Of a stretch of DNA of 23,387 nt, positions 3,846 to 23,387 are shown one piece after another (positions within the stretch are counted from its first letter, which is position 1; the number at the start of each line of letters is the position of its first letter). The translations under genes were made by a program, and so were the position numbers. Below the pieces are notes generated by a model. That model did not search any database, was not told the DNA's origin, and was given only the letters and a program-made list of their open reading frames with translations. The DNA comes from a virus. The DNA lies in IMG/VR virus record IMGVR_UViG_3300025120_000572, positions 1 through 23,387 of that record; one strand, written 5' to 3'.

Positions 3846-4493
3846 ATGGACAAATTTAACTTAAAAGGATTTATTAATGAAAATAACCTTGGTGCATACT
3901 CTAAATTAGAAGCTAAGAAACGTGATGTTGATGGAGATGGAGATATTGATTCTGATGACTATATGGCTGCTAAAGATGTTGCTATTAAAAAAGCAATGGC
4001 TAAAAATGAAAATATAACTGAAGCTACTGATGTAGAAGTAATTGATATAATATCCGAAATGTTATTTATACTATCAGATGGAAACCATACAGCTAGACAA
4101 GCTGCATTGGAAGTAGCTAAAGAAAGAGGGGTAAGTTTTAATCTTATTTTACAACAATACCAAAAGAAAGGTGGTGAATTACAAGATATAGATTTTGAAA
4201 CATTAAAAGAAGATCTAGATGTTGGACATCAAGATGATGAACCACAAATGCTAAAGAAAACTTTATATAGATCAGCTAAAATGGCTTCAATGTTATATAA
4301 AGAATTAGATAAATTTGATAAATTACCTACTGAAGTAGATTTTCCAAATTGGTGGCAAGCAAAAATTATTAAAGCAAATGATTATTTAAATGCTGCTTTT
4401 GATTATCTAGATGGTGAGCAACAAACAGCTAAAATGGATGCTATGAATGAAGGTCCAATTAAACTTGCTAATTTATTTAATGAAAAAAAGTGA
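3846..4493 (+). CDS. Three-module tagged head protein with EF-hand-like loop
   Basis: A 215-residue protein with the shared tag [12 protein letters not shown], possible cut after E12. Residues 27-38 ([12 protein letters not shown]) fit an EF-hand/dockerin calcium loop, with D at loop positions 1, 3, 5, 7 and 12, G at 6 and I at 8. I57-T-E59 followed by A60 and L120-K-E122 are further (L/I)xE sites. The second lies just before a module I recognise from marine T4-like phages ([47 protein letters not shown]). Possible cut sites thus bracket each module. It overlaps the nuclease-like gene by 14 bases. It is probably a prohead-packaged protein; the activity of each module is unknown. Confidence 0.65.
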
Positions 4494-6087
4494 ATTTATA
4501 CAACTTTTAGAGCAAGAGGTTGAAGATTTTATCCAAACTCAAGCTGATAAGATTGTCTCATTTGAAGATGATCCCAAGGAATATATTCTGCAAAAATATC
4601 CTTCATTAAAAGACACTCTTATTGATTTAATGACGGAAAGTTATGATGAATACATTACTGGTATCTATGTAATGGCTCCAAAACCAACAACATTTAAAGT
4701 ATTACTTCATAATGGTCAACATTTTTATTTAATCTATGCTAAAGATTCTTATATAGCCAAAATCTCAGGTAAAAAATATTATTTATCAGATTTAGGAGCT
4801 GAAGAATATGCAATTAAATCAATAGCAGACTTACTTATAATGGGTATGCCTCCAGGAGCAGAAGGCCCTGATCAAGAAGCAGAGAATGACATGACTAAAG
4901 ATGCTGATGAAACCCCAGATGCTGAAACGGATGACACAGGGGGAGATGAAGAAGAATTAGCAGAAAGTATTGATGATATTCCTGATAGTGAAAAAGATGA
5001 TTATGGTCGTCCTTTTGTAGATCCTAAAGGTTCAAGAACTTATATGGATGATAATGAGATAGAAAAGATAATGAACAAACTAGGTGAAAAATTATCAACT
5101 AAGAAGCTTCGTATTTTAAAAGAAGCAGAGGAAAAAAAAACATTTAGTAAGCAAGATTTAGTTGACTTAATTGATGGGATTGATGATGAAAAAACCCTTC
5201 AAAAAATTTTTAAATATGCTTCATCAACAGGTTTTGATCAATCAATAGACCCTTATTTAAAAACTAAAAACTTAACTGATAAAGATGTTACTTATTTCTT
5301 ATCTTTATTAAGTGAAATGGGTAAATTAGGTGAATTTGCTAAAATAGCAGAAAACCCACCAAAATTAGATTTAGCAGGAGATAATTTTTACAACCAAATA
5401 TCAGGATTTACACCTGCTGAATTAGAAAGTTTATTTACTACAATGAAAGATTCCATTAAAGGTACTGTATCAATGGGACCTGGAGAAAACTTCTTAAGTA
5501 TATTTTTTGGAAATGTATCTAAAGCAAATAGCAAAGGAGATCTAGATGTTGATGGAAAAGAAGTAGAATTAAAAGCAAGAACAGGTGATAGTGGTGCCGT
5601 TGTTGCTCCTAAAACATATAATAGAGGAGATTTTAGTAAAATAGTAAAACCTAAATTAAGTAAATTTATCAATGATTTAGGTACAGAACCTAGTGTAAAA
5701 AAAGAATTAGAACAAATAAATACACCTGGAGGAAGTGCTTGGCCTAAAAAATTAAATAATATGTTTGGTGTTTATTTACAAGGAGGTGGAAGTATAGATA
5801 AGTTTTCTACAGAGTTAACTAAAACTTTTAAAGATATGTACCCATCTTTAGATTTAAATGCTAGTGATTATTTAGGTCCAACAGGATTTGATCATTCTGC
5901 TTTTACAATTAGCTTAGCTAAAGAATTATCAAAAGAATATTACGATGTAGAAAAGTTTGATGCTTCAATGTTTGCTGATTTTAAAGGAAATTACCAATAT
6001 TATGCTGGAGATGGATTTATAGATGCTATAGGTAATGGAATTAAGGTAGCTTACCCATCGGATTTATTACCAAGATTAAAAGTATAA
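4480..6087 (+). CDS. PD-(D/E)XK nuclease-like protein with possible capsid tag
   Basis: A 535-residue protein. I chose the ATG at 4480 over the ATG at 4447 because it gives [13 protein letters not shown], close to the T4 tag pattern (MK..xEFI.E) with L9-L-E11 as possible cut. Residues 125-175 are an acidic linker. K208-K-L-R-I-L-K-E215 followed by A is a second tag-like site. Residues 332-336 (MGPGE) and 353-365 ([13 protein letters not shown]) form a PD-(D/E)XK-type core: D354/D356, then E363-x-K365 on the next strand. This core recurs in marine phage proteins of unknown role. A cut after E215 would free the C-terminal nuclease-like part. It could attack host or competitor DNA, or work in maturation. 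The fold is inferred from motifs, and the catalytic assignment is moderate. Confidence 0.6.
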
Positions 6088-6200: not shown

Positions 6201-7316
6201 ATGGAGGAAATTATAGTAAGTGTATCAATAGTAAATCATGATCGTTCTATTACAGTATTAAAAAATGGTGAGGTTAAAACCATTTTAATTGAAGATAGAG
6301 TAAGTAGAACTAAAAATGATTATATATACCCTTATTTATCTATATTAGAATTACCTAAAATTGTTAATAAAATTGACTATTTAATATTATTTGGTTCTTC
6401 ACATGAAGAAGAAGAAAAAAATATTTTAGATTATTTTAATAAAATTAAACTTGTTCCAAAAAATTTAAAAATAATTAGAGGAATTAAAAAAAACCACCAC
6501 CAAGCCCATGCTGCTTCTAGCTTTTATGGATCAGGGTTTAAAAAAGCTATTTGTTTAAGTATAGATGGTTTTGGAGGTTTAATTTCTTTACCACAAACCA
6601 ATAATAATTTAGGAAAATTTACTACCTCTATATTTTCTGCTAGTTATCCTAATAATTTTAAATTAAAATATGCTAATATATGGTATGAAACCAAACATTT
6701 TAATGTCTTCCCAGAACATTGTAATAATGATAAAATATATGATTATAATTCTAATTTAGATATAGGAAACATATATGAAGCTGTTGCAAGATATTTAGGT
6801 TTTTATCATGCTAATGAAGTTGGAAAGGTTATGGGCCTATCATCTTATGGAAAATATGATCCAAATATTCCCCCTTTACTATATAAGGATACTTTATATG
6901 CAAATTCTAATTTATTCAGAGGTGATAAAGAAATTCAAACTAATTTAAATCCATATTTAAAAGAATTAACTAAAGAAAAAGCAAGGAATATAGCTTTTGC
7001 AATCCAAAAAGCATTTAATAAAGTTATTCTTAAAAGAATAGAACAATCTTTAAAACTTAATAAAACAAATAATTTAGTATTTTCAGGAGGTTGTGCTTTA
7101 AATGTGTTAGGTAATTATTTAATTAAAAAAAGTTTCCCTAATATTAACTTATATATAGATCCTATAGCAAATGATAGTTGTTTATCTTATGGTATAGCAA
7201 AAAGTTTATATTATACTTTAAACCCTAATAAACCACCAAACCCCTTAAAATCTTTATATTATGGGCCAAAATATTCAAATAAAGAAATAATGAATACAAT
7301 AAATAATTATATTTAA
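6201..7316 (+). CDS. Carbamoyltransferase, N-terminal (Kae1-like) half
   Basis: A 371-residue protein matching the first domain of the NodU/CmcH/TobZ O-carbamoyltransferase family. Family marks are NHHQAHAASSFYGSGF (98-113), SIDGFGG (120-126), ANEVGKVMGLSSYG (204-217) and LVFSGGCALN (292-301). In this family the domain binds carbamoyl-adenylate made from carbamoyl phosphate and ATP and passes the carbamoyl group to a hydroxyl. The usual single chain is about 550-600 residues; here it stops right after the family position GPKYSNKEI and the rest is encoded by the next ORF. The break is TAA, two bases, ATG. Some phage members are known to carbamoylate 5-hydroxymethylcytosine in DNA; the substrate here is not shown. 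Confidence 0.85.
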   Translation: MEEIIVSVSIVNHDRSITVLKNGEVKTILIEDRVSRTKNDYIYPYLSILELPKIVNKIDYLILFGSSHEEEEKNILDYFNKIKLVPKNLKIIRGIKKNHHQAHAASSFYGSGFKKAICLSIDGFGGLISLPQTNNNLGKFTTSIFSASYPNNFKLKYANIWYETKHFNVFPEHCNNDKIYDYNSNLDIGNIYEAVARYLGFYHANEVGKVMGLSSYGKYDPNIPPLLYKDTLYANSNLFRGDKEIQTNLNPYLKELTKEKARNIAFAIQKAFNKVILKRIEQSLKLNKTNNLVFSGGCALNVLGNYLIKKSFPNINLYIDPIANDSCLSYGIAKSLYYTLNPNKPPNPLKSLYYGPKYSNKEIMNTINNYI

Positions 7317-7318
7317 AA

Positions 7319-7888
7319 ATGAGCAAATTTAAAAAAATAAAAGTATCTCATAAAGATATAGCCAAATTAATTTCAGAAAGAAACATAGTCTGTATTTTTC
7401 AAGGTAGATCTGAAGCAGGCCCTCGTGCTTTAGGCAATAGATCTATATTATATGATCCAACAGACCCAAATGGTAAAGATTTCGTTAATAAAGTTAAAAA
7501 AAGAGAATGGTTTAGACCATTTGCAGGTACCATTCTATCAGAAAAAGCAAATAGATGGTTTGATATGGCGGGGTTAGAAGAATCACCATTTATGATGTAT
7601 GCTATGGATGTTTGGCCTAATAAACAAGATAAAATTAAAGCTATTACCCATGTAGATGGTACTTGTAGAATCCAAACTGTAACTAAAGAACAAAACCCAC
7701 ATTATTATAAATTAATACAAGAATTTGAAAAAATAACGGGGGTACCTATCTTATTTAATACTTCATTTAATTTAGCAGGTGACCCACTTGTTGAAACAAT
7801 TGAAGATGCTTTAGAAACAGTTTTAAAAAGTGAAATGAATTATTTATATTTACCCGAGTTAGAAATACTTTTAGAAAAAAATGCATAA
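7319..7888 (+). CDS. Carbamoyltransferase, C-terminal half
   Basis: A 189-residue protein matching the C-terminal domain of the same family. It has FQGRSEAGPRALGNRSIL (27-44), KKREWFRPFAG (60-70), HVDGTCRIQTV and the late GVPILFNTSFNLAGDPLVET. In the single-chain enzymes this domain holds part of the carbamoyl-phosphate/ATP site, so both halves are needed. It starts 2 bases after the stop of the first half, in the -1 frame relative to it, and no conserved segment seems lost. It probably works as a two-subunit enzyme by coupled translation. A single-base error in the A-run TTAAAAATG cannot be excluded. It overlaps the FAD gene by 8 bases. Confidence 0.85.
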   Translation: MSKFKKIKVSHKDIAKLISERNIVCIFQGRSEAGPRALGNRSILYDPTDPNGKDFVNKVKKREWFRPFAGTILSEKANRWFDMAGLEESPFMMYAMDVWPNKQDKIKAITHVDGTCRIQTVTKEQNPHYYKLIQEFEKITGVPILFNTSFNLAGDPLVETIEDALETVLKSEMNYLYLPELEILLEKNA

Positions 7889-12882: not shown

Positions 12883-13418
12883 CACAAGAACCTATCCTTA
12901 TAAAAAATGTAGTTCCACTTAGTTTTCTAAAAGATTTAAAATTAAGAGCTTCTACACTTAAATCATGGGAATTTACATATCCTACAACTCCACCAGATGT
13001 GGAGTTTGAACTAGAGAAAAAATTCCCAAAACTTGATTTAACAGATAATATAGGAGATAATCCTCCAAAAGATATGTTATTAGGCCAATCCCATGCTTTA
13101 TTTTTATTAATACATGCTAGGGGGGGATTTAGATATTTTAATAATTATTTTCAATGGTGTGGGATAAGTATAAAAGATAAATACTGGGAAGGATCATTAC
13201 ATACAGATGAACAAAATACTAACCGCCTTAAAGTAATAGGAGTTCTTAACCCAGATTGGGACCCAAAATGGGGGGGGAATTTTTTATGGAATAATAAAGA
13301 ATACCCATTATACCCAGGTGAATTTTTAATATTTAATCCTAGAGTAGAACATGAAAATAGTCCTATAAAATGCAATAAAAAACGTATGGCTATTGATTTC
13401 GCAGTTGATCCTATATAA
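12879..13418 (+). CDS. 2-oxoglutarate/Fe(II)-dependent oxygenase
   Basis: A 179-residue protein, ATGA overlap with the previous gene. Iron ligands are H108-T-D110 in GSLHTDEQN and H158 in PRVEHENSP. R169 in KKRMAIDFAV would bind 2-oxoglutarate. LNPDWDPKWGGNFLW supplies the usual strand before the turn. Length and pattern fit the prolyl-4-hydroxylase-like 2OG-Fe(II) proteins often carried by T4-like marine phages. They hydroxylate proteins or nucleic-acid bases; the substrate is unknown. It lies directly before terminase, sharing one base with it. Confidence 0.8.
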   Translation: MTQEPILIKNVVPLSFLKDLKLRASTLKSWEFTYPTTPPDVEFELEKKFPKLDLTDNIGDNPPKDMLLGQSHALFLLIHARGGFRYFNNYFQWCGISIKDKYWEGSLHTDEQNTNRLKVIGVLNPDWDPKWGGNFLWNNKEYPLYPGEFLIFNPRVEHENSPIKCNKKRMAIDFAVDPI

Positions 13419-15001
13419 TGGCAGAAGATTTAAAACATATAATCAAGTCCGAATTTATAAAGTGTGCTAAGGATCCTATATACTTTATGAAAAAGTATTA
13501 TACTATCCAACATCCACAAAGGGGTAGAATTAAATTTAATCTTTATCCATTCCAAGAGAAAGTACTTACTCACATGAATAATGAAGATTATACTATAATA
13601 AATAAATCAAGGCAACTAGGTATATCAACTTTATGTTCAGCTTATTCATTATGGATGATGTTATTTCATAAAGATAAAAATGTACTATGTATAGCAACTA
13701 AGCAGGAAACTGCTAAAAACATGGTAACAAAAGTAAGATTTGCATATGACCAATTACCAAAATGGCTCCAAATAAAAACCACAGAACATAATAAACTATC
13801 TTTACGTTTAGCAAATGGATCACAAATTAAGGCAGTAGCAGCAAGTCAGGACGCAGGTAGGAGTGAAGCAGTATCATTATTATTAATTGATGAGGCCGCT
13901 TTTATTGATGGTATTGATGAAATATTTGCTTCAGCACAACAAACACTAGCCACGGGTGGTGGGTGTATAGCACTATCAACACCTTATGGTACTGGTAATT
14001 GGTTTCATTCAACTTGGGCTAAAGCCGAAGCAAGAGAAAATACATTTTTACCAATTAGGTTACCATGGACTGTCCATCCAGAAAGAAATCAAGAATGGAG
14101 AGATGAACAAGACATAGTATTAGGTCCTAGAATGGCAGCACAAGAATGTGATTGTGATTTTAGTACCTCTGGTGATACTGTAATAGAACCAGATGTATTA
14201 AATTTTTACGAAAGTACTTATATTCAAGAACCTGTTGAACGTAGAGGTATAGATGGAAATTTATGGGTATGGGAAATACCTGATTATTCTAGAGATTATA
14301 TAGTAGTAGCGGATGTTGCTAGAGGTGATGGTAATGATTTTTCTGCATTTCATATATTTGATATAGAAGAAGCAACACAAGTAGCTGAATTTAAAGCACA
14401 AGTTCAAACTAAAGATTATGGAAATTTATTATTTGCTATAGCTACAGAATATAATGATGCTTTATTAGTAGTAGAAAATGCAAATATAGGTTGGGCTGTA
14501 ATACAACAATTAATAGATAGAGGTTACAGAAACTTATATTATTCCCCCAAAATGGATGTATCTATGACTAATGCTGACCAATATCTTAGTAGATATGAAA
14601 ATGGTCAAGGTATGGTTCCTGGATTTACTACATCAATGAAGACGAGACCACTTGTTGTCTCCAAAATGGTTTCGTACCTTCATGAGAAATCTGTTACTCT
14701 TCGTTCTAAAAGATTATTAGAAGAACTAAGAACATTTGTGTGGAAAAATGGAAAAGCACAAGCATTATCAGGTTACAACGATGATTTAACTATGGCATTA
14801 GGAATAGGAATGTTTTTAAGAGATACAGCTTTACACTTTAAACAACAAGGTGTAGATATGGCAAGAGCAGCACTAGGAGGAATACATTCAACAAATTATC
14901 AAGCACCTAACATTTATCAAGGTGGAAAACCAAACATAAACCCATACGAAATGGAAAATCCATATGGAGATAAAGAAGATATCTCTTGGTTATTGGGCTA
15001 A
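13418..15001 (+). CDS. Terminase large subunit (gp17-like)
   Basis: A 527-residue packaging motor ATPase and nuclease. The Walker A-like segment is S64-R-Q-L-G-I-S-T71; the usual lysine of T4 gp17 (SRQLGKT) is replaced by I, a form I have seen in other marine phage terminases. Walker B is LLLID158-E159. The coupling motif is ALSTPYGTG (185-193). The C-terminal RNase-H-like nuclease has D299 (VVADVARGDG), E353 (LVVENAN) and D455-D456 (GYNDDLTMA). It is shorter than T4 gp17 (610). It begins on the last base of the oxygenase stop and ends on the first base of the late-type motif before the portal. No small terminase subunit is recognised nearby. Confidence 0.95.
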   Translation: MAEDLKHIIKSEFIKCAKDPIYFMKKYYTIQHPQRGRIKFNLYPFQEKVLTHMNNEDYTIINKSRQLGISTLCSAYSLWMMLFHKDKNVLCIATKQETAKNMVTKVRFAYDQLPKWLQIKTTEHNKLSLRLANGSQIKAVAASQDAGRSEAVSLLLIDEAAFIDGIDEIFASAQQTLATGGGCIALSTPYGTGNWFHSTWAKAEARENTFLPIRLPWTVHPERNQEWRDEQDIVLGPRMAAQECDCDFSTSGDTVIEPDVLNFYESTYIQEPVERRGIDGNLWVWEIPDYSRDYIVVADVARGDGNDFSAFHIFDIEEATQVAEFKAQVQTKDYGNLLFAIATEYNDALLVVENANIGWAVIQQLIDRGYRNLYYSPKMDVSMTNADQYLSRYENGQGMVPGFTTSMKTRPLVVSKMVSYLHEKSVTLRSKRLLEELRTFVWKNGKAQALSGYNDDLTMALGIGMFLRDTALHFKQQGVDMARAALGGIHSTNYQAPNIYQGGKPNINPYEMENPYGDKEDISWLLG

Positions 15002-15025: not shown

Positions 15026-16951
15026 ATGGCAGATACTTCATTATTTGGTAGACTAAGAAGATTATTTTCTACAGACGTAGTAATAAGAAACGTCGGAGGA
15101 AACCAACTTAAAGTAATGGATTCTAACCAAATCCAATCTTTAGGACAACTACAAACAAATTCACTATACGATAGATTTAATAAATTGTATAGCACTACAG
15201 GGGGGCTGAATTATAATACAATGCAGCAAGCTAATTTCCCTTCTACTAGAATTCAATTATATACGGACTATGAAGCAATGGATACTGATTCTATTGTTGC
15301 TTCTGCATTAGATATAGTATCTGATGAATCTTGTTTAAGAAATGATATGGGCGAAGTATTACAAATTCGTTCGGCTGATGAAACAATACAAAAAATATTA
15401 TATAACTTATTTTATGATGTACTAAACATAGAATTTAATCTATGGTCTTGGACACGTAATATGTTAAAATATGGAGACTTTTATTTAAAACTAGAAATAT
15501 CAGAAAAATTTGGTGTATTTAACGTTATACCTTTTTCTTCTTATACTATCATAAGAGCAGAAGGTACCGACCCAGCTAACCCTGCTGATGTTAAATATAA
15601 GTATGATCCTAGTTATTCAGTATCTGAAAGTCCATTAGGATTCCAACAAATATCACCTGGTGTAGGTGTTAATACTGGTGAAGAAGTGATATTTGATAAT
15701 TATGAAATGGCACATTTTAGATTATTATCTGATTTTAACTATTTACCTTATGGTAGATCATATCTTGAACCAGGAAGAAAAATTTGGAAACAAATGACAT
15801 TGATGGAAGATGCAATGTTAATTCATAGAATAGTTAGAGCACCAGAAAAAAGAACTTTCTTTGTAAATGTTGGAAATATACCACCAAATGAAGTAGAAAC
15901 TTATATGCAAAGAATGATCAACAAAATGAAAAAAACACCTTATGTTGATCCAAATACAGGTGATTATAATCTTAAATTTAATATGCAAAATATCTTAGAG
16001 GACTTCTATATTCCTGTAAGAGGTGGTGATCAAACTACACGTATTGAAACAACAAAAGGTTTAGATTATGCCGCTATTGAAGATGTAACTTACTTAAGAG
16101 ATAAATTATTCTCTGCTTTAAAAGTTCCAAAAGCTTATTTAGGATATGAAGCTGATTTAGAGGGTAAATCAACACTAGCTGCTGAAGATATTAGATTTGC
16201 CAGAACAGTTGAAAGAATACAAAAAATATTAATATCCGAGCTAACTAAAATAGCATTAGTTCATTTATATTCACAAGGATATGATGATTCTGCATTAACT
16301 AATTTTGAATTATCATTAACTACACCTTCTATTATATATGATCAAGAAAGAACAGCATTATTAAAAGAAAAAGTTGACTTAGCCCAACAAATGATGGATA
16401 CTAAATTAATGCCTACAGATTGGATATATGATAATATTTTCCACTTTAGTGAAGATCAATACCAAGAATATAGAGATTTAATAATTGAAGATCAAAAACG
16501 TAAATTTAGAGAAGCACAAATTGAAACAGAAGGAAATGATCCTGCTGAATCAGGTGAAGCATATGGTACACCACATTCACTAGCATCATTATATGGAGCA
16601 GGAAGATATCCGGGAAGCAAAGGAGTTCCTACAGGGTATAGTGTAAATGATCCTGAATACCCTGAACAAGCATTAGACCAAGGAAGACCAGCTGATTCCG
16701 TATCTGATTATGGTTCACAAGATAGTAATTTAGGTAAAGATCCTATTGGCTCTAGCGGTATGAAAGTTAAATCAGGAAAAGAAGAAAGACCAGGATTATC
16801 TAACGCAGGGATGGCTTTAGAAAATTTAAATACCAAGTCAGTATTTGCTCAAAATGAGAAAATGTTAAAAGGTATGTTTAAACAAAAAGTTAACTTATTT
16901 GAAGGAGAAAATCTATTAGATGAAGATAATATCCGCGAGGAAGTTAAATAA
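15026..16951 (+). CDS. Portal protein (gp20-like)
   Basis: A 641-residue protein forming the dodecameric vertex ring through which DNA is packaged. The N-terminal half has the usual T4-like portal sequence: IQLYTDYEAMDTDSIVASAL, then SWTRNMLKYGDFYLKLEI, SYLEPGRKIWKQMTLMEDAM, IHRIVRAPEKRTFFVNVGN and PKAYLGYEADLEGKSTLA. It is longer than T4 gp20 (524), mostly through a C-terminal tail rich in G, S, P and D after about residue 500. The tail ends in NLFEGENLLDEDNIREEVK. It follows terminase without tail sheath or tube genes between them. Confidence 0.93.
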   Translation: MADTSLFGRLRRLFSTDVVIRNVGGNQLKVMDSNQIQSLGQLQTNSLYDRFNKLYSTTGGLNYNTMQQANFPSTRIQLYTDYEAMDTDSIVASALDIVSDESCLRNDMGEVLQIRSADETIQKILYNLFYDVLNIEFNLWSWTRNMLKYGDFYLKLEISEKFGVFNVIPFSSYTIIRAEGTDPANPADVKYKYDPSYSVSESPLGFQQISPGVGVNTGEEVIFDNYEMAHFRLLSDFNYLPYGRSYLEPGRKIWKQMTLMEDAMLIHRIVRAPEKRTFFVNVGNIPPNEVETYMQRMINKMKKTPYVDPNTGDYNLKFNMQNILEDFYIPVRGGDQTTRIETTKGLDYAAIEDVTYLRDKLFSALKVPKAYLGYEADLEGKSTLAAEDIRFARTVERIQKILISELTKIALVHLYSQGYDDSALTNFELSLTTPSIIYDQERTALLKEKVDLAQQMMDTKLMPTDWIYDNIFHFSEDQYQEYRDLIIEDQKRKFREAQIETEGNDPAESGEAYGTPHSLASLYGAGRYPGSKGVPTGYSVNDPEYPEQALDQGRPADSVSDYGSQDSNLGKDPIGSSGMKVKSGKEERPGLSNAGMALENLNTKSVFAQNEKMLKGMFKQKVNLFEGENLLDEDNIREEVK

Positions 16952-18938: not shown

Positions 18939-20171
18939 ATGACAACACAAGAATTATATAACAAGGTATTAGCTGAGGAAGTAACACAGCAAAAATTTTT
19001 ATACGAAGTTCGTAGAGATATTAACTTACCTTTCATCACTGCAAGTAACAACTTTAAAGATACTGTACAAATCTTAAAGAATAAAGGTATGATATCTGAA
19101 AAAAAGTTATCAACTGGTAAACAAGATGTTGAAATTTATGCTAAAACTATTGATATGGTTAATCCATATGAATATACTAGAGGTATGGATTATGAATTAG
19201 GTGTTGTTGTTGATGCAATAGGAAACAGAGTTGCAGATAATGCTGGCGATAGTATGCACATTGAAGATCTTACTAAAGATGACGTATTAAAAGCACAGAA
19301 AAAAGTATTAAAAAATCTTACCAAAAACCCTCAATACTATCAACAAAAGTTAATCCCCCAAATGGAAGGTGAAACTGAACACCCAGTTGAAGTAAATGCT
19401 AAATCAATAGAGGCCTTAAAAAAAAAAGCAGGGAAAGTAATTCGTGAACATGGTGAAGATTATGAAGCTGTATCCAAAGTTATGGGTAATGTTTCTCAAC
19501 TAGAAGAAGACGATAAAACTCAAGAATTCGTAATGGCTTTAGATATGTTTAAGAATGCTAAAGGCACTGCAGATGAAAAAAAAGCAAGAGAATATCTTAA
19601 AAAAATATCAAAACAATCAATTGGTGTTGAATTACCTATAGATACGGATATGGATGGTGATGTTGATAATATGGATGAACAGCAATTAGAACTTGATTTT
19701 CCTAATGATCTTAGAGATTTATCTTTTGCTCAAAAATCAAAACTACTTAATAATGCACTTAAAAACTATAGAGCAGCTAACTCCCCAGGATCTAAAAAAG
19801 CTGCAGCTAATGATTTAGTTAAAGTTTCAAAATCTATAGGAGCTAATATTGATGTTTCTGATATAATGGAAACAGATACAGACTACGATAGAGCTAAAGA
19901 TGCTAAAAGATTAGGTAAAAAAGGTGAAGAAAATATTTACGGGGCAGGAGTAAAAAAAGGTGAAGAAATTGCTGCTAAAAAAATGGCTGCTAAACGTGAA
20001 TCAATTTACGAAAAATATGCCCAAAAATATGGTGTTGATATTAATGATGTAAAAGATAGATTAGAAGCATATAAATTAAAAAGTGAAGATATTGAAGTTG
20101 AAGATGAAGATACAGCTATAGCAATACAAAAAAAATCACCTGACGCTGTCGTAAGAATAACTGGAAAATAA
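18939..20171 (+). CDS. Conserved prohead-cluster protein, scaffold-like
   Basis: A 410-residue charged protein. The start MTTQELYNKVLAE, possible cut after E13 (L-A-E), resembles the T4 tag pattern. Residues 20-50 (FLYEVRRDINLPFITASNNF) and 74-88 (VNPYEYTRGMDYELG) mark a family I know from the same position in T4-like marine phages. D235-T-D-M-D-G-D-V-D-N is a calcium-loop-like stretch. The rest is lysine-rich helix. It begins 4 bases after a late-type motif and shares one base with the protease start. A prohead core role is inferred from position and composition. Confidence 0.65.
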   Translation: MTTQELYNKVLAEEVTQQKFLYEVRRDINLPFITASNNFKDTVQILKNKGMISEKKLSTGKQDVEIYAKTIDMVNPYEYTRGMDYELGVVVDAIGNRVADNAGDSMHIEDLTKDDVLKAQKKVLKNLTKNPQYYQQKLIPQMEGETEHPVEVNAKSIEALKKKAGKVIREHGEDYEAVSKVMGNVSQLEEDDKTQEFVMALDMFKNAKGTADEKKAREYLKKISKQSIGVELPIDTDMDGDVDNMDEQQLELDFPNDLRDLSFAQKSKLLNNALKNYRAANSPGSKKAAANDLVKVSKSIGANIDVSDIMETDTDYDRAKDAKRLGKKGEENIYGAGVKKGEEIAAKKMAAKRESIYEKYAQKYGVDINDVKDRLEAYKLKSEDIEVEDEDTAIAIQKKSPDAVVRITGK

Positions 20172-20788
20172 TGGCACAAACACTATTAATAGAATATTCG
20201 GTATTTACTCCAAAAAATACCCAAATTACTGAAGGCATTTCAGGTAATAAAAATATGATTGTTGAAGGCGTTGTACAACGTGCTGAAGAATTTAATCATA
20301 ATGGTAGAAGATACCCATTTGAAATACTAAAAAAAGAAGTAGACAAATATATTGAAGGCCCTATTAAAGAAAATAGAGCACTTGGTGAATTAGATCACCC
20401 AGAATCTTCAGTAATTAATTTAAAAAATGCTTCTCATAATATAAAAGAACTACATTGGGATGGTAATGATTTAATGGGTAAAATTGAAGTTTTACCAACA
20501 CCATCAGGAAATATCTTAAGAGAATTATTTAAAAATAATATCACAGTTGGTATTTCATCACGTGGTATGGGCTCTGTTACACCACTTGGTGAAGGTAGAG
20601 TAGAAGTAGATGATGATTTCGAATTATTATGTTGGGATTTTGTATCTACACCATCTACTCACGGTGCTTTTATGAAACCTACAGGGTTAAATGAAGGAAA
20701 AAATCATACTTTTAATAAATATAATAAATTAAATGAAATAATATCTGATATTATATGTACACAATCCGGTATTTGTTGTCTAAAATAA
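20171..20788 (+). CDS. Prohead core protease (gp21-like)
   Basis: A 205-residue serine protease that in T4 cleaves scaffold, capsid and internal proteins after (L/I)xE. T4 gp21 is 212 residues, so this is full length. Catalytic candidates are H76 in GELDHPESS and S129/S130 in TVGISSRGMGS, with D156 in LCWDFVSTPS as possible third residue. The tail contains L173-N-E175 followed by G and L187-N-E189 followed by I, both fitting self-cleavage sites, and ends in the Cys-rich ICTQSGICCLK. Its substrates here probably include the tagged proteins upstream and the gp22-like scaffold. Confidence 0.92.
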   Translation: MAQTLLIEYSVFTPKNTQITEGISGNKNMIVEGVVQRAEEFNHNGRRYPFEILKKEVDKYIEGPIKENRALGELDHPESSVINLKNASHNIKELHWDGNDLMGKIEVLPTPSGNILRELFKNNITVGISSRGMGSVTPLGEGRVEVDDDFELLCWDFVSTPSTHGAFMKPTGLNEGKNHTFNKYNKLNEIISDIICTQSGICCLK

Positions 20789-20798
20789 CTAATAATTA

Positions 20799-22298
20799 AT
20801 GGGTTTTATAAAAAAGGTTAATATAGTAGGAGGAGGAACTGCTGGGCTTACAACAGCACTTATATTAAAATCAATACATCCTAAACTAAAGGTACAAATA
20901 ATAAAATCTTCTAAAGAAAAAATAGTTGGTGTAGGAGAAGGAAGCACCCCAGAATGGCATGAATTTTTAAAAATTGCCAATATTAATTTTAGAGAATTAA
21001 TTAGAGAAGCAGGTGCTACTGCAAAAATAGGAATATTATTTAATGATTGGAATTATATAAACCACCAATACACCCATTCCGTATTGTATGACTTTCCTAA
21101 TAAAGTTTTAGATTATTTAATATTATCTAATTCAAATTCTCCATTTCCTCTTTCACAATATTTTGAAAGTATATATTTTAAAAATAAAATCCCTATTATA
21201 ACCCCTGAATTTGAATCAGTAAAATCATATCATTTTGATACTTTTAAATTAAATGATTTTTTAATAAAAAAATGCAAAGAAAGAGGAATTATAATTAAAG
21301 ATTATTTTATTCAAAATTTAAATTTAAATAATAAAGGTGAAATATCATCACTCCAAACGTTAGATAATAAAATTATAGAAGGAGATTTTTTTGTAGATTG
21401 TACCGGATTTAAAAGAGTTTTAATGTCAAAATTAGGAGCTAAATGGAAATCATATAAAGATAACCTCCCAGTTTCACATGCTATAACATTTCCAACACCC
21501 TTAAACCCTGAAAAAGGAATTGAAACTTATACTACTGCTACTGCTTTATCCTCAGGATGGGCATGGAAAATCCCAACCCAATCTAGATACGGAAATGGTT
21601 ATGTATTTGATAGTAGATATATAAACGAAGATAATGCTTTAGATGAAATCAATAAACATTTAAATACTAATGTAGAAAAAGTAGCTAAAAGTATACCTTT
21701 TGAAGCAGGTAAATTAAATTCTCTTTGGATTAAAAATTGTGTAGCAATTGGACTATCAGGAAGTTTTTTAGAACCTTTAGAAGCACAAAGTATAGGTTAT
21801 GGTATTAGACAAGCTACTATATTAGCCAATGAATTATACAGTTATCCATTTTCAAAATCAGTAATTAATAATTATAATTCTAGGTTAGATAGAGTATTTA
21901 ATAATGTACTTAATATGGTGCAAATTCATTATTTAACTAAAAGAAATGATTCAAAATTTTGGAAAGAAAAACCTTTTAATTTAACTTCTTTTAATAAAGA
22001 AAAAATTGAACTATTTTCTTATGGGTTTATAGATTATTCTAATTTTGATGCTGCTCCTCATGATTTATTATTTTCACCTACAAATTTCTATCATGTATTA
22101 CAAGGGATGGATATTATTTCTAAAGAAAAAATACAATACAAACACAAATTACTATCATCCTCAGAATCTCAACTTAAGGAAGAATATGAAGACTATATAG
22201 AAAATCATTTACATGAGTTAGAAAGATATTCTTTATATAACCCTGATATTATTTCAATGGACCATATGGAATATTTAAATTTATTAAAACAATCTTAA
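20799..22298 (+). CDS. Flavin-dependent halogenase (tryptophan halogenase family)
   Basis: A 499-residue protein. FAD fingerprint G11-G-G-T-A-G-L in VNIVGGGTAGL; GVGEGSTPEW (44-53); K76 in ATAKIGILFNDW, which lines up with the catalytic lysine of PrnA; W254-A-W-K-I-P259, the WxWxIP halogenase signature; and FLEPLEAQSIGYG (323-335), with E328 where PrnA has its catalytic Glu, followed by A instead of S. PrnA-type enzymes use reduced FAD, chloride and oxygen to halogenate tryptophan or related compounds; substrate here unknown. It stands alone between gp21 and gp22, in the phage head cluster, 10 bases after the protease stop. Cyanophages also carry such genes. Confidence 0.85.
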   Translation: MGFIKKVNIVGGGTAGLTTALILKSIHPKLKVQIIKSSKEKIVGVGEGSTPEWHEFLKIANINFRELIREAGATAKIGILFNDWNYINHQYTHSVLYDFPNKVLDYLILSNSNSPFPLSQYFESIYFKNKIPIITPEFESVKSYHFDTFKLNDFLIKKCKERGIIIKDYFIQNLNLNNKGEISSLQTLDNKIIEGDFFVDCTGFKRVLMSKLGAKWKSYKDNLPVSHAITFPTPLNPEKGIETYTTATALSSGWAWKIPTQSRYGNGYVFDSRYINEDNALDEINKHLNTNVEKVAKSIPFEAGKLNSLWIKNCVAIGLSGSFLEPLEAQSIGYGIRQATILANELYSYPFSKSVINNYNSRLDRVFNNVLNMVQIHYLTKRNDSKFWKEKPFNLTSFNKEKIELFSYGFIDYSNFDAAPHDLLFSPTNFYHVLQGMDIISKEKIQYKHKLLSSSESQLKEEYEDYIENHLHELERYSLYNPDIISMDHMEYLNLLKQS

Positions 22299-22417: not shown

Positions 22418-23387
22418 ATGTCAAACACAAAGTTTTTCAACGATGCTATCGCTGAAGCTAAGGAAATCCGTGAAACGGCCCTTGCTAATGCTAAGCTTGC
22501 ACTTGAAGAAGCTTTTACTCCACAGATTCAATCTATGTTAGAGAAAAAGCTTACACAAGAAGCTGATGATATGGATGAAGCAAAAGACATGGACGAAGCG
22601 AAAGCTAAGGACATGGACGAAGCTAAAGACATGGATGAAGCTAAAAAGGACATGGACGAAGCAAAATCCAAAGATATGGATGAAGCTAAAGACATGGACG
22701 AAGCTAAGAAAGACGTTGACGAGGCTAAAAAAGACGTAGATGAAGCTAAAAAAGACATGGACGAGAAAAAGGACATGGATGAAGCGAAATCTGACGTTGA
22801 TGAAGCTAAGAAAGACGTAGACGAAGCAAAAGTTGACGAGAAAAAAGACATGGAAGAAGCATCTCAAGTAGATGAAGCATCTGTAGAGGAATCTGCAGTT
22901 GAAGAAGCTGCTGTAGAAGAAGCATCTGACATGGAAGAAGGTCAAATCGAAGAAATCGATCTTGACGAATTGCTAGCGGAATTAGAAGCAGCTGAAGAAG
23001 GCTATTCTAACGAAGGTGAAGCAAAAGAAGAAATCGCTGTTGAGGCGCCTGTATCTGAAGAAGAAGTAGCTGAAGAAGCTGCTGCTGACGACGAAGTAGG
23101 TGAAATCTCAGTAGAAGATCTTAAAGACATCATCAAAGACGTAATGGCCGATGTGCTAGGCGGTGGCGGTGGTGAAGACATGGAAGTTGACGTAGATGGA
23201 GATGGTGACATGGATGTTGCTATTGACGGAGACGACGACGGAGATGTTGAAATAGAAGACGAATTAGCTGAAAAGAAAGCTGATGACAAAATGGATGAAA
23301 CTAAAGCTGAGTTAAACGAAGCTATTAATGTAATCAAAACTTTGAAATCAGAACTTAATGAAGTTAACTTACTTAATGCTAAACTTC
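22418..23387 (+). CDS. Prohead scaffold core protein (gp22-like), partial
   Basis: ATG at 22418; 323 residues are visible and the frame runs off the right edge. The N-terminus (SNTKFFNDAIAEAKEIRETA, then LEEAFTPQIQSML) is typical of gp22-type scaffolds of T4-like marine phages. Residues 51-148 are an acidic repeat of the unit D[MV]DEAK. They are followed by a Glu/Ala-rich helix and a region with calcium-loop-like DVDGDGDMD and DGDDDGDVE (about 255-280). A helical segment with two L-N-E sites (gp21-type) comes last. In T4 the scaffold is degraded by gp21 to empty the prohead. GAC and GAG codons are more frequent than in the neighbours, which fits high expression. Confidence 0.88.
   Translation, partial: MSNTKFFNDAIAEAKEIRETALANAKLALEEAFTPQIQSMLEKKLTQEADDMDEAKDMDEAKAKDMDEAKDMDEAKKDMDEAKSKDMDEAKDMDEAKKDVDEAKKDVDEAKKDMDEKKDMDEAKSDVDEAKKDVDEAKVDEKKDMEEASQVDEASVEESAVEEAAVEEASDMEEGQIEEIDLDELLAELEAAEEGYSNEGEAKEEIAVEAPVSEEEVAEEAAADDEVGEISVEDLKDIIKDVMADVLGGGGGEDMEVDVDGDGDMDVAIDGDDDGDVEIEDELAEKKADDKMDETKAELNEAINVIKTLKSELNEVNLLNAKL
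22568..22862 (+). repeat. In-frame acidic tandem repeat in the scaffold gene
   Basis: About 13 copies of a unit coding D[MV]DEAK or D[MV]DEKK, spaced by 6, 7 or 8 residues, plus two degenerate copies at the end. Third codon positions vary between copies (GAC/GAT, GAA/GAG, GCA/GCT/GCG), so the peptide pattern is kept while the DNA has drifted. The repeat is coding, not a CRISPR array. Confidence 0.85.

Follow-up and report, generated by a model that had tools for sequence, protein, structure and literature searches.

The internal proteins of phage T4 are injected and hypervariable, with each inhibiting a distinct type IV restriction enzyme, and shield the injected DNA from host restriction enzymes (PMC12373910; PMC3012670). 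As cargo they are diverse, only the targeting sequence being conserved (PMC3012670). IPI-IPIII and Alt, the latter an ADP-ribosyltransferase, are CTS cargo cut by gp21. In temperate phages, MuF polymorphic toxins comprise a constant phage-structural N-terminal part and a swappable C-terminal domain, a nuclease in more than half of the cases, and are associated with a packaging module (PMC5576092). The polyvalent proteins that phages and conjugative elements encode are likewise injected conflict proteins, with many domains (PMC5512222).

The locus considered here resembles that of T4 IPI-IPIII and Alt in its T4-type head module, its S77 protease, its short tags ending in (I/L)xE and its combination of a constant targeting part with hypervariable cargo (PMC3012670, PMC9958956). 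By contrast, whereas the internal proteins of T4 are small inhibitors of restriction, the cargo here is larger and nuclease-like, and is borne on a folded domain or on a KGYPD header. With MuF toxins the locus shares a constant phage part and a variable C-terminal domain, although it is found in T4-like phages presumed to be of Bacteroidetes type, presents a protease-type site at the junction, carries cargo that belongs nearly entirely to one nuclease superfamily and lacks a recognised immunity gene in the position of the next gene; a Pfam search detected no MuF domain in the carrier. A polyvalent protein would similarly be injected and serve in conflict, yet here a single swappable nuclease, rather than many concatenated activities, lies behind a tag. 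No earlier description of the carrier-header-nuclease locus was found in the literature searched.

The reading favoured, and considered the probable one, is that this is a polymorphic, head-packaged, restriction-enzyme-like effector locus, in which the cargo of a carrier-nuclease fusion would be freed, injected and cut the DNA of the recipient. This reading draws on sequence for the catalytic core, the linkage, the interchangeable vehicles, the protease gene and the sites at the junction, and on prediction for the fold.

The gene and its surroundings

The window, that is, the whole stretch of DNA analysed, is a virus record of 23,387 bases whose gene content (S77 prohead protease, Portal_T4 and terminase) is that of a T4-like phage. 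The relevant features are as follows:

4480..6087, + strand: whole gene (535 residues, ATG start), encoding carrier domain, acidic linker, tag and restriction-enzyme-like nuclease
4480..4512, + strand: N-terminal tag, a presumed targeting peptide (similar tags are found on neighbouring genes)
4570..4845, + strand: carrier (N) domain, residues 31-122, pLDDT about 92 (AlphaFold model, IMG/VR relatives)
4846..5100, + strand: acidic disordered linker, residues 123-207, pLDDT mostly below 50
5101..5124, + strand: internal tag KKLRILKE, residues 208-215, predicted head-protease site at the junction with the cargo
5125..6084, + strand: cargo, a PD-(D/E)XK, type II restriction-enzyme-like nuclease domain, residues 216-535 (alignments and model)
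5476..5487, + strand: GPGE, residues 333-336, in the first core helix, with G333 and E336 invariant
5536..5574, + strand: catalytic-core motif, residues 353-365, with G353, D354, E363 and K365 invariant
13418..15001, + strand: terminase large subunit, in T4-type context
15026..16951, + strand: portal protein, Portal_T4 (gp20)
20171..20788, + strand: prohead protease, Peptidase_S77 (gp21 family, E 3.8e-32), candidate enzyme for the tag sites

Searches of Pfam, PHROGs, NCBIfam, PADLOC and PDB sequences placed the protein encoded by 4480-6087 in no named family, with matches to DrrA and AlkC (E > 0.02) being dismissed as chance. Among 50,697 phage records, the sole named relatives of the gene were those of the Flavobacterium phages immuto, and it is because of this that the phage is presumed to be of Bacteroidetes type.

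The downstream neighbour of the nuclease gene is a NodU-like carbamoyltransferase in the window and an FAD enzyme in most close relatives. The NodU/TobZ-like carbamoyltransferase is seemingly split over two successive ORFs (6201-7316 and 7319-7888) 3' of the nuclease gene, and a related ORF lies downstream of the gene copy in relative L002. Upstream, ORF 3846-4493 encodes a dockerin/EF-hand-like motif that also appears in further tagged proteins encoded by these phages, as well as in a protein of a cyanophage (L010 11109-12767). ORF 20799-22298, flanked by the head protease and a scaffold-like gene, resembles flavin-dependent tryptophan halogenases (GGGTAGL, EGSTPEW); the scaffold-like protein (22418-23386) contains a long run of KDMDEAK repeats, and its ORF is interrupted by the end of the contig.

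Catalytic core and predicted fold

The initial annotation had assigned a D, D and E-x-K core to residues 353-365 and pointed to a conserved-looking GPGE upstream. When the protein was aligned with 16 relatives, sharing as little as 19-20% identity with it, L260, G333, E336, G353, D354, E363, K365 and P531 were the invariant columns of the C-terminal half, and a second alignment of the cluster (16 sequences after redundancy removal at 90%, averaging 24% identity) yielded the identical set. The conservation expected of D354, E363 and K365 was thus observed in both alignments, and the GPGE at residues 333-336 indeed includes two invariant positions, G333 and E336. D356, however, is not conserved among the 16 relatives and was rejected as a catalytic residue; the catalytic set is therefore considered to be E336, D354 and E363-x-K365. 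Such an E...D...E-x-K set is the signature of PD-(D/E)XK nucleases (acidic residue...D...(D/E)xK). Judged by these alignments, residues 353-365 together with G333-x-x-E336 are the invariant core of the nuclease family.

Comparable cores are seen in other cargo. A sister family presents the literal motif (GVGNGE...DDPDLF..GVEVKAY), and headerless profiles of the window family and of this GNGE...DPDL...GVEVKA family match over 190 columns with the motifs in register (E 2.4e-7). In the independent cargo family that includes relative L105, the largest of all, D187 and K201 are invariant, while E138 and S199 hardly vary. Cluster 0 comprises 40 sequences after redundancy removal at 90%, averaging 26% identity; the positions at which conservation reaches 95% or more are an E at the junction, a G, and the E, D and K of the core.

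The domains diverge strongly, yet conservation peaks at the active-site residues, which indicates catalysis. The same observation speaks against a counter-defence role like that of T4 internal proteins I-III, themselves injected and hypervariable, in which the restriction-enzyme-like fold would bind DNA or host enzymes and block restriction with no cutting; such a role is deemed improbable. The effector nuclease favoured here would, instead, be an active enzyme.

In the AlphaFold model of the window protein, a confident carrier domain (residues 31-122) is followed by a disordered linker and a mostly confident C-terminal domain, in which a helix (334-342) bears E336, strands 355-357 and 360-365 are found at D354 and E363-x-K365, and a helix comes after. 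The alignment used for this model was of small depth in its C-terminal part because rows of the header-bearing type were partly placed in the wrong columns. Full-domain VIA alignments of the C-terminal domain with MspI (Z 3.6), with ThaI (3ndh; Z 3.4) and with HinP1I (Z 3.1) were weak, while the nuclease domain of the L105 model (residues 132-350; pLDDT 88 for the model) aligned as a whole with HinP1I (Z 5.8, 157 residues) and HhaI (Z 5.2), all of these Z-scores falling in the 3-6 range where chance similarity occurs. Foldseek returned no significant PDB match for either model, and only unannotated phage proteins from BFVD. Type II restriction-enzyme HMMs matched the motif region of the fused relative L039 (1.6e-7) and of the header-borne relatives L113 (4.9e-4) and L190 (2.9e-5). 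The PD-(D/E)XK fold first proposed for this half of the protein is thus a prediction: the modelled secondary structure agrees with the alpha-beta-beta-beta-alpha-beta core of that superfamily, which has its catalytic residues on strands 2 and 3, and the weak MspI, ThaI and HinP1I alignments point the same way, although the PDB search did not reach significance. The reading of a nuclease-like domain is supported by these alignments, by the conserved core and by the model elements at E336, D354 and E363-x-K365.

Two further resemblances were noted. The carrier resembles frataxin/CyaY (Z 5.8, 76 residues aligned), taken as a likeness of shape only, and in L105 (5371-6486) a domain preceding the nuclease (residues 46-134) resembles minimal nucleotidyltransferases (ANT(2''), Z 6.7, 78 residues aligned).

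With the type II restriction endonucleases MspI, HinP1I, HhaI and ThaI the cargo shares an E...D...(E/Q/N/S)xK-type core, and to this are added the weak full-domain structural alignments and the HMM matches of three relatives. Unlike these enzymes, the cargo comes with a phage carrier, either as a fusion or as its partner, and the cognate DNA methyltransferase of a type II restriction-modification system was not found when 14 long related contigs were searched with two Pfam models, PF00145 and PF02086. Nor was a methyltransferase noticed among the ORFs of the window. Hydroxymethylated DNA was considered as a means of self-protection and set aside; thymidylate-synthase-type genes are present in 8 of the 14 related contigs but are not diagnostic.

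Carrier, header and junction tags

The carrier (residues 1-122) was found at at least 183 places in IMG/VR, and only in some phages is it fused to a cargo. In the unfused form, a carrier gene with an acidic tail is followed, directly or close by downstream, by a cargo gene that begins with a header of 33-45 residues (MDxLDxFFKKFSYKFPKGYPDMNNEQDVLLLESLL, here termed KGYPD), for which 550 relatives were obtained. Using an HMM built from carrier rows only (an HMM that included misaligned cargo rows gave nearly the same result), the carrier was found upstream of the header gene in all 78 testable loci, with a median gap of 115 nt, and cargo was either fused or encoded by a downstream header gene at 70 of 79 carrier loci. 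The fused and header-gene forms never occurred together at one locus. Because the two parts are fused here and encoded by adjacent genes there, a Rosetta-stone link, carrier and nuclease are taken to function together.

In Flavobacterium phage vB_FspM_immuto, the two are adjacent separate genes: gp192 is the same carrier (37% identity over residues 6-122) and gp193 belongs to the same nuclease family as that of the window. Immuto differs in that carrier and nuclease are unfused, the nuclease has a KGYPD header, and both genes are annotated as hypothetical. A motif of 14 residues in the linker of the window protein aligns with the KGYPD header and is suggestive of a decayed copy.

Relatives were also seen outside this arrangement. 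In Synechococcus phage S-8S55, L010 7755-8789 is a stand-alone cluster-0 nuclease relative, found among replication genes with neither carrier nor header. The single match among bacterial homologues lies on L191, a phage-like contig from a Flavobacteriales MAG, where 643-1491 encodes a cluster-3-type nuclease with a short tag only (MAKSFNMIIED), a third delivery form; its neighbours are a small upstream protein starting METTYKEFMEAK and downstream baseplate-like genes.

The protein had been described as starting with a tag-like peptide, as having a second such site, KKLRILKE, before its nuclease half, and as possibly packaged. Both tags are present, the second at residues 208-215, and tags similar to the first begin neighbouring genes. 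A strict tag pattern, chosen after the tags had been seen, occurs in the first 20 residues of 7 of the 29 window proteins, as compared to 2.1% of internal 20-mers. Most fused proteins contain one or two basic tags at the junction (e.g., KLRILKE, PLKFKILKE), resembling the N-terminal tags of neighbouring genes (e.g., MKIRIVKE at 1781). In header proteins, (I/L/V)xE was found at the junction in 103 of 103, as opposed to 27% of other stretches of sequence examined. The T4-type head protease prefers (L/I)xE. As in T4-type CTS cargo, an N-terminal tag, an (I/L)xE site and a genome-encoded S77 prohead protease are found together. Given the junction sites and tags and the S77 head protease encoded in the window, cleavage at LKE|AEE is likely. 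Packaging, with which the tight carrier operon also agrees, has hence gained in strength as a prediction.

We infer packaging, cleavage, injection and target to proceed as follows. The N-terminal tag and carrier domain would take the protein into an assembling T4-type head, where, upon maturation, the S77 protease would cut after the internal tag (LRILKE|AEE) and so set free, inside the head, a nuclease some 320 residues long that is PD-(D/E)XK in type and resembles type II restriction enzymes. This nuclease would exit with the DNA and cut DNA of the newly infected cell, be it the host chromosome, a plasmid, a prophage or a rival phage. The cargo is traded between phages as a cassette. Nuclease activity within a head is feasible, since infective T4 heads can carry staphylococcal nuclease, with the virus staying active and the DNA being cut once calcium is added (PMC3012670).

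The headerless stand-alone relatives, L010 in a cyanophage replication region and L191 beside baseplate-like genes, are in line with another reading, namely that an active restriction-enzyme-like nuclease is not packaged but works at a late stage within the producing cell, directed, for instance, at host DNA or at co-infecting phages, with the tags merely holding it at the site of head assembly. This is, however, unlikely, given the (I/L/V)xE junction on all header-borne cargo, the position of the locus near a head module with a head protease, the carrier gene that always adjoins and the fact that L191 itself starts with an IIE tag.

Exchange of cargo and its meaning

The 129 distinct cargo-bearing proteins fell into twelve cargo clusters, as defined by a replacement clustering, since single linkage with no coverage limit merged most cargo. 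By inspection, E...D...(E/S/D)xK is present in 11 of the 12, the exception being cluster 8 (L069, L081 and L091). The members of this motif-less twelfth family (L069 3696-4601, L081 5366-6250 and L091 5464-6375) bear the header, and the locus may thus carry other effector types too.

Among 104 fused pairs whose carriers share at least 75% identity, 59 bore cargo of different clusters, representing hypervariable cargo behind a constant part, as in T4-type CTS cargo. In L057 and L058, carriers that are 99% identical are followed by cargo of differing clusters. In the reverse case, cargo up to 75% identical is found on both vehicles, the fused carrier and the header. Such cassette exchange argues for a role in conflict rather than in housekeeping, and would be expected were target specificity or escape from host protection under arms-race selection.

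The location of the gene, with tagged head-type genes on one side and the terminase and portal genes on the other, and the constant linkage to the carrier could also reflect a part in head assembly or DNA packaging, such as the trimming of branched or surplus DNA in the head. A housekeeping nuclease should, however, be conserved, yet the cargo differs entirely even between carriers that share as much as 99% identity, and the phage encodes its own terminase. There is thus little likelihood of such a role, and attack on DNA in the recipient cell, as proposed here, fits the swapping of cassettes better than does trimming.

In its broadest form, the proposal is that uncultured T4-like phages of Bacteroidetes type employ head-carried, cassette-swapped restriction-enzyme-like nucleases that are released by a protease and injected as offensive enzymes with no cognate methylases, an arsenal of at least 11 sequence families on two interchangeable carriers. 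This is put forward tentatively, as a real possibility that falls somewhat short of being probable. The packaging logic that serves T4 internal proteins seems here to carry hyperdiverse, swappable restriction-enzyme-like nucleases in hundreds of uncultured aquatic phages. Flavobacterium phage immuto offers a cultured system in which the question of packaging can be addressed. If true, the locus would provide a test case for a head that holds an active nuclease beside its own genome, would be a source of nucleases with new specificities and would stand as the phage equivalent of polymorphic toxin systems, with restriction enzymes being used by phages as injected weapons.
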